A stretch of DNA of 39,992 nucleotides from Alphaproteobacteria bacterium. Lineage in GTDB: Bacteria > Pseudomonadota > Alphaproteobacteria > Rs-D84. Below the pieces are notes generated by a model. It saw only the letters and a program-made list of their open reading frames with translations, did not search any database and was not told where the DNA came from. Below are positions 19,694 through 22,960 of this stretch, one piece after another (position 1 is the first letter of the stretch; the number at the start of each line of letters is the position of its first letter). The stretch covers positions 1 through 39,992 of the forward strand of contig JAFWZK010000057.1 of assembly GCA_017522445.1 (NCBI GenBank). The letters run 5' to 3'. The translations under genes and the position numbers were made by a program.

Positions 19694-19725
19694 AAAAAAA
19701 ATCCGCCGGTCGGCGGGATTTTTAT
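19694..19725 (-). terminator. Terminator of rpmJ
   Basis: A GC-rich stem (CCGCC against GGCGG) with A-runs on the left and T-runs on the right lies immediately after, and partly into, the rpmJ stop codon on the minus strand. It could also stop rightward transcription. Confidence 0.7.
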
Positions 19726-19856
19726 TTCTTCTTGAAACCCTGTTTCGCTTTGAACTTTGGATTATCTGGGTCAATCAAGATAACCTGTTTACCACGGCGA
19801 ATTTGTTTTACATTGCCGCGTTTTTTCCAGGCCTTTAATGAACTTAAAAATTTCAT
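19722..19856 (-). CDS. rpmJ: 50S ribosomal protein L36
   Basis: A 44-codon gene. The protein begins MKFLSSLKAWKKR, continues with GKQVILIDPDNPKFKAKQG and ends in FKKK. The MK..SSLK start and the NP-FKAKQG end are the L36 signature of the type without zinc; no Cys or His ligands are present. Ribosome site AAAAGGAT precedes the ATG, and a near-consensus promoter lies 24 bases further upstream. L36 is needed for 23S rRNA packing in the large subunit. It stands alone here, away from the other ribosomal genes in the window. Confidence 0.88.
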   Translation of the reverse strand: MKFLSSLKAWKKRGNVKQIRRGKQVILIDPDNPKFKAKQGFKKK

Positions 19857-19879
19857 GTCGTTATCCTTTTTACATGCAG

Positions 19880-19907
19880 ATTATATACATATTTTTTGAA
19901 AAATCAA
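19880..19907 (-). promoter_or_regulatory. Promoter of rpmJ
   Basis: On the minus strand TTGATT (19907-19902) and a perfect TATAAT (19885-19880) are spaced by 16 bases. The start of transcription falls about 17 bases before the ATG. Confidence 0.7.
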
Positions 19908-19948
19908 ATATTATTGTGTTTTTATTTCTGTAAATGCAATACGCCCTG

Positions 19949-20225
19949 TTTTCAACAGGTGAAATAAAAAATACACGTTATTTATATTTATTGTAGTTGT
20001 TGTAGTAGGGGCTGTTGAAATTGTTGAAAACTGTTTTTAACAAAATGTTAACAAGTTTTTAACAAAAAATTGCACAGTTTCTGTGTTGTTTAGACGGCGT
20101 GTTGAAAATTAATGCATGTTTTTTAACATGTTGAAAACTGTCCAGTTATTAACAATTTTAACAATTTTTTGTGGGGGTCAGTTTGTACTTGTTGAAAAGT
20201 GTTGAAATTGTTATAATTATCAACA
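19949..20225. other. Cluster of DnaA-box-like nonamers: candidate replication origin or DnaA-controlled region
   Basis: No gene is present from 19857 to 20237. The stretch carries about 13 copies of a nonamer TTWTYAACA, allowing one change. On the plus strand: 19949, 20034, 20056, 20120, 20146, 20155, 20217. As the complement TGTTGAAA(A/T): 20013, 20022, 20100, 20129, 20190, 20200. Several are spaced exactly 9-10 bases. TTATCAACA at 20217 is one base from the DnaA box TTATCCACA; the others keep TT-T---ACA or nearly so. The left part (19891-20010) is very AT-rich, as a strand-opening region would be. mnmG, gyrB and mnmE, often near origins, lie within 20 kb. An operator array for virB3 is the main alternative. 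Confidence 0.5.
20189..20217 (+). promoter_or_regulatory. Probable promoter of virB3-virB4
   Basis: TTGTTG (20189-20194) and TATAAT (20212-20217) have 17-base spacing, 20 bases before the virB3 ATG. Both boxes overlap copies of the nonamer, so the factor that binds them would compete with RNA polymerase. Confidence 0.5.
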
Positions 20226-20237
20226 AGGAAGAAGAGA

Positions 20238-20534
20238 ATGAAACAGCAAGTTTTAAAAGCACTGGCAAATCCATCACATATTTTTTATGTGCCATATTCT
20301 TTGGCGGTGTTAAACTTTTTAATACAATTCGTGATTTTTACAGTGCTGTTTGTTGTGTCTTTGATTGTTACCAAAGGTAAAAATCCATTAAATCCTTTGT
20401 TCTTTTTGTTGTCTGTTATTGCAGTCCATTCAATCATAGCAATCTTTTCAAAACGTGACCCGCAACTGGGGCAGATTGTGTCCGCAAAAATTCAATTGTT
20501 CAAAAAGAAAGTACCAGGAAAGTTAGCAGCATGA
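20238..20534 (+). CDS. virB3: VirB3-like type IV secretion protein
   Basis: Small inner-membrane subunit of type IV secretion systems that works with VirB4. It has 98 residues with two adjacent membrane segments (about 22-45 and 53-75), a basic N-terminus (MKQQVLKALANPSHIFYVPY) and a C-terminal KRDPQ motif, as in the VirB3/TrbD family. The ribosome site AAGGAAGAAGAG is strong. It overlaps virB4 by 4 bases, the usual arrangement. No other channel component is near. Confidence 0.82.
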   Translation: MKQQVLKALANPSHIFYVPYSLAVLNFLIQFVIFTVLFVVSLIVTKGKNPLNPLFFLLSVIAVHSIIAIFSKRDPQLGQIVSAKIQLFKKKVPGKLAA

Positions 20535-22960
20535 TAAACCAATTAAATGATTTCTTTGATTATTTTGCAGGCAGCGGTTTTGAAATCACCACCGCTGTGA
20601 TGGTGATGATTACACTGTTGGTATTTATTGTATTGCTGATATTCGTGCCGACACTGACCAAGAAAGTTTTTCCACGGTTCGGCTATGATAAATATGCAAA
20701 CTATATCCCTTTTAAGACAGTGTTTACTGATGACTCGATGGAATTGACAGATGGCAGTTTAATCCGTGTCTATCGTGTTGCAGGTCTGCAAACCAGTATG
20801 CTGGATAATGCCGCAAAAGAAAAGTTCCTGGATTTGCGGGCGCAATTGTTTAATCAAATTCGTGACCCAAATGTTGTGTTGCGGTTCTTTATGACACGTG
20901 ATGCGGCCGATGAAAATACAAACTATGAATTCGATCAGCCAACCCTGCAACGCATTTATAATAAATGGCAGGGACAGGGATTAAAAATATTCTTGAATAA
21001 TTATTATATCGTATTGTCGGTGGCGGGGCCGGATAAAAGGGCAAAATTAAATCAATATGGAAACTATGTCGAATCAATTTTGGCGGCATATAAACCACAG
21101 GTGTTGAAAAATAACAGCCGGGATAATATGGCGTGCTTTTTCGGCAGAATATTGTCCCCAATTTCAAAGCCAAAACCAAGGTTTGCAGATAATAATATCG
21201 CAAAACTGACAACTGTTGATGATGTCGAATTCTTGCGTGATGGATTAATCAGATACGTCAGTGGGACACAACAATCGTTCGCTGCATGCGTGTCGTTTAA
21301 AATTTCACCTGACTATCTGGATGAAGAGTTTTTCGAAACGGTTTCAACCATTCAGACGGAAATGATTTGTTTGAATGCATTTAGGATTATGGGAACGGCG
21401 GATATAGAAAAAACCTTTCAACAAAGACGGGCAACCGCAGATGAAAAACAAAAATCAACCGAAGAACAAATCATGCATGCACAGACTGCTATGGATGAAA
21501 ATATTTCAGGTAATCAAAGCTTGGTAAATTATTATCCTTTGTTCGTGATTTATGGTGCCACACCGGCAGAAGTTAATAAATACGTTGACGAGTTTAAAAA
21601 AATCGCCGCAGGATTTGGTATCTCGCCTGTGGTGGAAACGTTTGCAGCAAAGGTTTCATGGTTTGCACAAATCCCAGGATTTGATGTGTTCCCGCGTACA
21701 TTTAAACTGTTATCACGGGCCGCTGCCATTACTGTGCCTATGGCAACACAGCCGCGTGGGGTGGAAAACTCGGACTGGGGGCCGGGGCCGCTGGTTGTGT
21801 TCCCAACCGCACAGGGAACACCGTATCAATTCCAATTTCATGTGTCAGATAAACCGGCCGCAGTGGGACATACGTTGACAATCGGACCAACCGGTGGTGG
21901 TAAAACAACGTTGTTCTCGTTCTTAATCGCACAAAGTTTAAGACATCCAAAGTTAAAAGCATTTTTCTTTGACCGTAATAAAGGGGCGGAAATATTTACA
22001 CTGGCGGTGGGGGGAAAGTATATAACTATGCAGGGAAAAGAAAAAAATACAGATCCCATGGCACACAGTTTTATGACACATTTAAACCCATTGAAAATGC
22101 CAGATACAGCCATAAATCGTGCGTTCCTGCGGCGGTGGTTTGCAATTATTTCTGGGCAAAATGACGCGTTGTCTGCAGATGAAATAGCACGGGCTGTGTC
22201 CGTTAATTTCGATTATTTGAATGATAAAGACAGATTGCTGAAAAATCTGTGGGAAAGTTGTTTCTCGTCGGCGGGAAAAATGCGACCCGCCCTGAAAAAA
22301 TGGGTCGATCCTTTGCAATATGGTGATATATTTAATGAAGCGGCAGATACACTGGATTTACATTCTAGACTGACAACATTTGACTTTACCGATATTTTGC
22401 AGGACGAAACGTTGGCACCTGCGGTCATTTCTTATATACTGCACAGAATTAACAGTATTACTGTGTCGGGCGGAAATCCATCGCTGATTATGATTGACGA
22501 AACGGCACCTATGTTGGAAAACAAAATGTTCCGTGATAACTTTATCACAGGATTACAAGAGGGACGTAAAAATCGTCAGGCATATATGGTGGCATTCCAG
22601 CGGGCAAATGTTCTGGATAAACTGGGGATTGGTGATGTCGTGCGTGGACAGGCACAGACAGTCATGTTTTTCAGAAATCCTGCAGCAGATGTAAATGATT
22701 ATGCACACTGGAACCTGAATCCAATGGAAATGGCATTTATCCAAGGCAAGGCATATCCAAACCTGAAACGGGCGGTGTTGTTGTCAAGGCCTGTTAATAG
22801 GGAATCGGTTATTTTAAATACAGAACTGGGGGGACTGGGGAATCTGTTGCGACTGTTTGAGTCGGGACGCTCGTCAGTGCTGCTGGCCGAAGAATTGTAT
22901 AAAATGTATGGAAATAACTTTGTTAACGAATACCTGAAAAAACAGGGGGCCGCAGATTAA
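20531..22960 (+). CDS. virB4: VirB4-like type IV secretion ATPase
   Basis: Hexameric ATPase that powers T4SS assembly and substrate transfer at the inner membrane. At 809 residues it has the usual length. It carries a short hydrophobic N-terminus (about 15-40), the CagE/TrbE/VirB N-terminal domain, then the P-loop G452-PTGGGKT-459 and Walker B LIMIDE (652-657). Conserved RecA-fold stretches follow, such as LQEGRKNRQAYMVAFQ. In Rickettsiales the same virB3-virB4 pair occurs apart from other vir genes, with further rvh genes elsewhere; a similar scattered arrangement is likely here. A conjugative origin seems unlikely because no relaxase, coupling protein or tra genes are present. Confidence 0.92.
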   Translation: MINQLNDFFDYFAGSGFEITTAVMVMITLLVFIVLLIFVPTLTKKVFPRFGYDKYANYIPFKTVFTDDSMELTDGSLIRVYRVAGLQTSMLDNAAKEKFLDLRAQLFNQIRDPNVVLRFFMTRDAADENTNYEFDQPTLQRIYNKWQGQGLKIFLNNYYIVLSVAGPDKRAKLNQYGNYVESILAAYKPQVLKNNSRDNMACFFGRILSPISKPKPRFADNNIAKLTTVDDVEFLRDGLIRYVSGTQQSFAACVSFKISPDYLDEEFFETVSTIQTEMICLNAFRIMGTADIEKTFQQRRATADEKQKSTEEQIMHAQTAMDENISGNQSLVNYYPLFVIYGATPAEVNKYVDEFKKIAAGFGISPVVETFAAKVSWFAQIPGFDVFPRTFKLLSRAAAITVPMATQPRGVENSDWGPGPLVVFPTAQGTPYQFQFHVSDKPAAVGHTLTIGPTGGGKTTLFSFLIAQSLRHPKLKAFFFDRNKGAEIFTLAVGGKYITMQGKEKNTDPMAHSFMTHLNPLKMPDTAINRAFLRRWFAIISGQNDALSADEIARAVSVNFDYLNDKDRLLKNLWESCFSSAGKMRPALKKWVDPLQYGDIFNEAADTLDLHSRLTTFDFTDILQDETLAPAVISYILHRINSITVSGGNPSLIMIDETAPMLENKMFRDNFITGLQEGRKNRQAYMVAFQRANVLDKLGIGDVVRGQAQTVMFFRNPAADVNDYAHWNLNPMEMAFIQGKAYPNLKRAVLLSRPVNRESVILNTELGGLGNLLRLFESGRSSVLLAEELYKMYGNNFVNEYLKKQGAAD

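Follow-up and report, generated by a model that had tools for sequence, protein, structure and literature searches.

The region 19949-20225 of the window (the whole stretch of DNA analysed here, 39,992 nucleotides) is crowded with short repeated nonamers on both strands, and the question is whether they mark the chromosomal replication origin (oriC) of the host or serve another purpose at this locus. The exact nonamer TTWTYAACA occurs 10 times in these 277 bp (six on the plus strand, four on the minus strand), and its core TYAACA 15 times (eight plus, seven minus), compared with four cores in the next densest 280-bp stretch of the 40-kb window. In 5000 dinucleotide shuffles of the array region, which served as the chance baseline, the core reached a mean of 1.96 and a maximum of 7, and the nonamer a mean of 0.27 and a maximum of 3; the cluster is real and lies far beyond chance. 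The initial annotation had reported about 13 copies of TTWTYAACA; the cluster itself stands, while that number gives way to 10 exact nonamers and 15 cores. The array is intergenic, with an rpmJ-like gene on the minus strand on one side and virB3 on the plus strand on the other, and its G+C content is 28% against 41% for the window, in keeping with the gene-free, AT-rich site described at the outset. The 9-10 base spacings pointed out there are those within tandem box pairs, and mnmG, mnmE and gyrB were located within 20 kb of the array, as had been stated. No RNA-family match was found for the array region. What is expected of an oriC, a beyond-chance box cluster in AT-rich intergenic DNA, is thus present, with boxes that deviate at position 6.

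The closest records are animal-gut metagenome-assembled alphaproteobacteria, several of them named Candidatus Enterousia, a genus that belongs to the reduced-genome order Rs-D84 (PMC12306168); the genome of the window comprises 0.99 Mb in 62 contigs. Conservation was examined in an alignment of 77 sequences (the window and 76 congeners) covering 330 bp upstream of virB3, and since these loci were collected via virB4, conservation of the array beside virB3 is partly by design. Upstream of virB3, the 77 sequences hold a median of 9 TYAACA cores (range 2-15), while 2488 background 330-bp windows from the same loci hold a mean of 0.83 and a maximum of 5. About 11 sites are conserved, mostly as tandem pairs (20013/20022, 20045/20056, 20146/20155 and 20190/20200). 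Among 142 genomes from the order, 84 have close tandem TGTTGAAA pairs, and nearly all of these belong to the window's genus; the reversed control pattern gave almost none. The tandem pair is the sole match or one of very few per genome, which agrees with the expectation that the nonamer be enriched only here. Most other genera of the family likewise have the array in front of virB3 (weak or absent in part of g20), so that the conservation in relatives proposed as a check extends across the genus and most of the family. In the sister families, no array was found upstream of virB4, although virB4 itself is kept there, which places their origin elsewhere or makes it different in kind. In one genome (G032), contig C13 past ~152 kb consists of N at the expected lpxC-virB region, and the missing virB4 there is not evidence of loss.

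In the usual DnaA box, TTWTNCACA, position 6 is C and any base may stand at position 5. The 847 aligned sites of the array give the consensus TTTT[C/T/A]AACA: position 5 varies among C, T and A, and position 6 is A in 94-100% of the sequences at 10 of the 11 sites. Relatives with few TYAACA matches, some with only 2-5 cores, carry A at position 5. As a fact of sequence, the box shift is well supported, the C of the canonical box being replaced, and the A-for-C substitution that had been proposed as lineage-specific is borne out. Because the free position 5 and the T-rich first half are those of TTWTNCACA, the sites are most simply read as DnaA boxes in which A has replaced C6; they are very probably a lineage-specific DnaA box with the consensus TTTTNAACA, at which binding by DnaA is predicted as part of the oriC reading. 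The exact standard box TTATCCACA is scattered in both genomes searched for it, with 17 copies in the complete chromosome G059 and 9 in G003, and forms no cluster in either; the standard-box cluster elsewhere that would have spoken against the shifted box was thus not encountered in them. In the sister families, no clear TTATCCACA cluster was seen except in G043, where three exact copies lie within 700 bp (G043:C2:25975-26643), possibly a standard-box origin in that genome.

The order of elements across the locus can be followed from left to right. The rpmJ-like gene (ribosomal protein bL36; 19722..19856, minus strand) is a 44-aa frame read from the sequence and named by eye, and the stretch upstream of it is kept in congeners. 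Its probable promoter at 19880..19907 (minus strand), with TTGATT, a gap of ~17 bp and TATAAT, was assigned by eye from conserved columns in the 77 sequences. Next comes an AT-rich stretch at 19913..20008, a candidate DNA unwinding element according to a duplex-stability scan and the alignment; the 80 bp with the lowest stability in the window start at 19861, and 19960-20000 is weak too. Positions 19914-19980 are mostly an insertion of the window's lineage, and a lineage-specific box TTTTCAACA (19949..19957, plus strand) lies inside it. The palindrome CCTGTTTTCAACAGG is found at these same positions, with this extra box in a ~67-bp insertion that most relatives lack.

To the right of the triplets and spacer at 19991..20012, which are treated below, the first box pair (ATTTCAACA, TTTTCAACA) occupies 20013..20030 on the minus strand, with A at position 6 in 97-99% of the 77 sequences. 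It is followed at 20034..20064 by the plus-strand boxes TTTTTAACA (20034), ATGTTAACA (20045) and TTTTTAACA (20056), the last two of which form the conserved second pair. A single minus-strand box TTTTCAACA at 20100..20108 has A at position 6 in 99% of sequences, and two facing boxes, TTTTTAACA (plus strand, 20120) and TTTTCAACA (minus strand, 20129), lie at 20120..20137, the second being displaced by one base in most relatives (~20120/20130). The third pair (TTATTAACA, ATTTTAACA; 20146..20163, plus strand) has A at position 6 in 97-100%. The fourth (TTTTCAACA, ATTTCAACA; 20190..20208, minus strand) is the most conserved, with the TYAACA core in 100% and 82% of the 77 sequences at its two sites, and it overlaps the -35 region of virB3. 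A near-invariant TATAAT at 20212..20217 (plus strand) is the probable virB3 -10 element, in agreement with the overlap with the virB3 promoter already suspected in the initial annotation. The last box, TTATCAACA (20217..20225, plus strand), is poorly kept in relatives. Beyond it lie the type IV secretion genes virB3 (20238..20534, plus strand; PF05101, E 2.5e-05) and a virB4-type ATPase (20531..22960, plus strand; PF03135, E 2.4e-11).

Immediately to the left of the first pair, the plus strand reads TTG TAG TTG TTG TAG TAG (19991..20008), followed by the GC-rich spacer GGGC (20009..20012). In the 36 relatives parsable by a simple pattern, to which the triplet count is limited, the T-W-G register is strong (TTG 98, TAG 36), and some relatives have three consecutive TAG. 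In Bacillus subtilis, the unwinding system combines a pair of DnaA boxes with a short GC-rich spacer and with trios that read 3'-GAT-5' (PMC8287927), and a DnaA-trio unwinding module has also been described in Clostridioides difficile (PMC7561715). The array shares with the basal system of B. subtilis and other bacteria the tandem pair, the 4-bp GC spacer, triplets on the same side and AT-rich DNA beyond them, and differs in that its triplets are mostly TTG, not TAG (PMC8287927). The strict DnaA-trio rule asks for three or more NAN triplets no farther than 16 bp from a box; the window lacks these, its triplets next to the spacer being two TAG and then TTG, and shows the relaxed T-W-G register. 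Since the central-A rule fails here, a trio role is a proposal. The triplets and GGGC may thus be a degenerate DnaA-trio unwinding module, by analogy with the known ones, and deviant trios without a central A were suspected by the authors of that earlier work (PMC8287927).

GC skew offers a test of the origin, and relatives were used for it because the 62 contigs of the window's assembly cannot be ordered for skew. In the complete chromosome G059 (OX097180.1, 1,001,484 bp), where the array lies at 597 kb, skew is negative to ~596 kb, weak to ~680 kb and then positive, with the opposite switch at ~120-150 kb and a flat cumulative-skew basin. With virB3 as the reference for orientation, six genomes show negative skew upstream of the array and positive skew downstream of it, the negative-to-positive switch expected of an oriC. 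Cumulative skew reaches its minimum at -10.6, +31, -10.5, -30, -31 and -45 kb from the array, that is, 10-45 kb to either side of it and not on it; the skew check suggested earlier yields a flip near the array. In five of these genomes, the mreC-dnaG block sits directly upstream of the array and is transcribed toward it, probably lifting local skew. In the sixth, G066, the array and virB3-virB4 are inverted relative to both flanks (~226.5 kb of the contig), the block lies downstream, and the apparent minimum shifts to +31 kb. As the minima fall on opposite sides under opposite local gene order, they bracket the array. In a box-density survey of 1.42 Mb (220-240-kb stretches of the six genomes), the array outranks every other cluster in five; G061, whose boxes carry A at position 5, is the exception, with weak clusters of 6 TYAACA cores. 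One such locus per chromosome is thus the rule, G061 being excepted for its TYAACA count. hemE, encoding uroporphyrinogen decarboxylase, is the usual neighbour of the alphaproteobacterial origin; no match to it was found in any of the eight genomes searched (G000, G003, G010, G021, G025, G028, G029 and G059), and it was dropped as an origin marker.

The position of the fourth pair over the virB3 promoter, which is conserved and has its TATAAT at 20212, and the adjacency of the array to virB3 in nearly all relatives examined, would also suit a platform for a transcription regulator of virB3-virB4, or of rpmJ, unrelated to replication. Yet about 11 sites over 210 bp exceed the needs of one promoter, skew flips near the array in six genomes, all but one of the six 220-240-kb stretches showed no comparable cluster, and the triplets with their GC spacer suit an origin; such a platform is very improbable. 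That sister families have lost the array upstream of virB4 while retaining the gene is compatible with the regulator and origin readings alike. The distance of the single-genome minima from the array could instead indicate a locus at which DnaA is titrated or exerts regulation, the true origin lying elsewhere within ~50 kb. This is disfavoured by the lack of any other comparable cluster near the skew flip in the stretches examined of five genomes, G061 having its weak clusters, and by the bracketing of the array under opposite gene orders, and it appears very improbable.

CtrA-type sites (TTAA-N7-TTAAC) occur in alphaproteobacterial origins too, and TTAACAAAATGTTAACAAGTTTTTAACA at 20037-20064 contains two TTAA-N7-TTAA spacings. 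Most of the conserved sites, however, read TTTTCAACA and not TTAA, and no OmpR-type DNA-binding domain (PF00486) matched over the cut-off in six genomes, which makes a CtrA cluster unlikely; we consider this assignment the least credible of all, with next to no probability. The region is very probably the chromosomal oriC of an Rs-D84 alphaproteobacterium of the Candidatus Enterousia type, equipped with a lineage-specific DnaA box. This reading, already put forward in the initial annotation, is supported by the skew flip, the conservation, the near-uniqueness of the array, the fixed A at position 6 and a changed domain IV of DnaA.

Each genome encodes one full-length DnaA; its gene lies ~150 kb away from the array in G059 and at G000:C45:2000-5200 in the window's genome. 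The genus protein matches PF00308 and PF08299 over the cut-off as well as solved DnaA structures, and it has the Walker motifs of domain III and the DnaA signature of domain IV. The domain IV Pfam score is ~60-76 bits in the family against ~80-105 in sister family f4. By E. coli numbering, set by alignment to canonical proteins, P423 is replaced by S, T, A or M, T435 by A and H439 by Y in every family member aligned, while R399, D433, H434 and T436 are retained; T435A is common to the family and f4, whose proteins retain P423. Residues 399, 423 and 432-435 have been reported to contact bases (PMC5043019). The box shift and the change in DnaA have a similar family-wide distribution, a correlation and not proof of cause, and the domain IV changes may be causally tied to the shift. 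In addition, the arginine finger R285 is replaced by L, V or I and the sensor-2 R334 by H in all aligned family members, with the same columns recovered in a separate alignment to solved DnaA 8btg, and the Walker A and B motifs remain. Proteins of f4 and f6 retain R285 and mostly R334, and the only f2 protein carries E and K at these positions. E. coli DnaA requires Arg285 for ATP-dependent oligomers and Arg334 for ATP hydrolysis (PMC5742627). No box cluster lies upstream of dnaA, and control of dnaA itself by DnaA boxes was rejected.

A working scheme for the locus can be drawn from these elements. DnaA would occupy the ~11 conserved TTTTNAACA sites, mostly abutting tandem pairs, and a DnaA filament would grow from the leftmost pair (20013-20030) across GGGC onto the T[T/A]G triplets. 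The AT-rich DNA to the left of the triplets would then open, helicase would load, and forks would leave both ways. Both binding and unwinding at the array are predicted from sequence. Given the overlap of the fourth pair and TATAAT with the virB3 promoter, DnaA may also affect virB3, and on the last pair, over the -35 region, it may restrain virB3 transcription. A bolder and rather doubtful idea is that the family, lacking the arginine finger and the sensor-2 arginine, dropped the ATP switch of DnaA, making opening ATP-independent or differently regulated, and that a new DnaA-origin code arose by co-evolution of domain IV with the box (C6 to A) and with the trios (central A to T or A).

Compared with bacterial oriC built on TTWTNCACA, the array is likewise intergenic, AT-rich, unique per genome and near a GC-skew flip, with many boxes on both strands and a free position 5; it differs in its fixed A, not C, at position 6 and in lying between rpmJ and virB3, not beside dnaA or hemE. 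Epsilonproteobacterial origins also combine a lineage-shifted box with varied DnaA domain IV residues, but theirs fixed T at position 5 and kept the core TTCAC, whereas the array has lost the very C of the core, at position 6 (PMC5043019). An oriC with DnaA boxes is already known; what is new is the combination of an altered box, altered trios and an initiator that lacks both the arginine finger and the sensor-2 arginine, a combination of which no report was found in the literature searched.

For a large uncultured gut lineage, the array provides a predicted origin that TTATCCACA searches miss, and coverage-based growth-rate methods could be anchored at it. The lineage also combines, in nature, changes in the DnaA box and the likely unwinding motif with changes in the contact residues and the ATP-sensing residues of the initiator. 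Co-evolution of initiator and origin is thereby testable with purified protein. The array and the family DnaA may thus illustrate an origin and its initiator drifting together.
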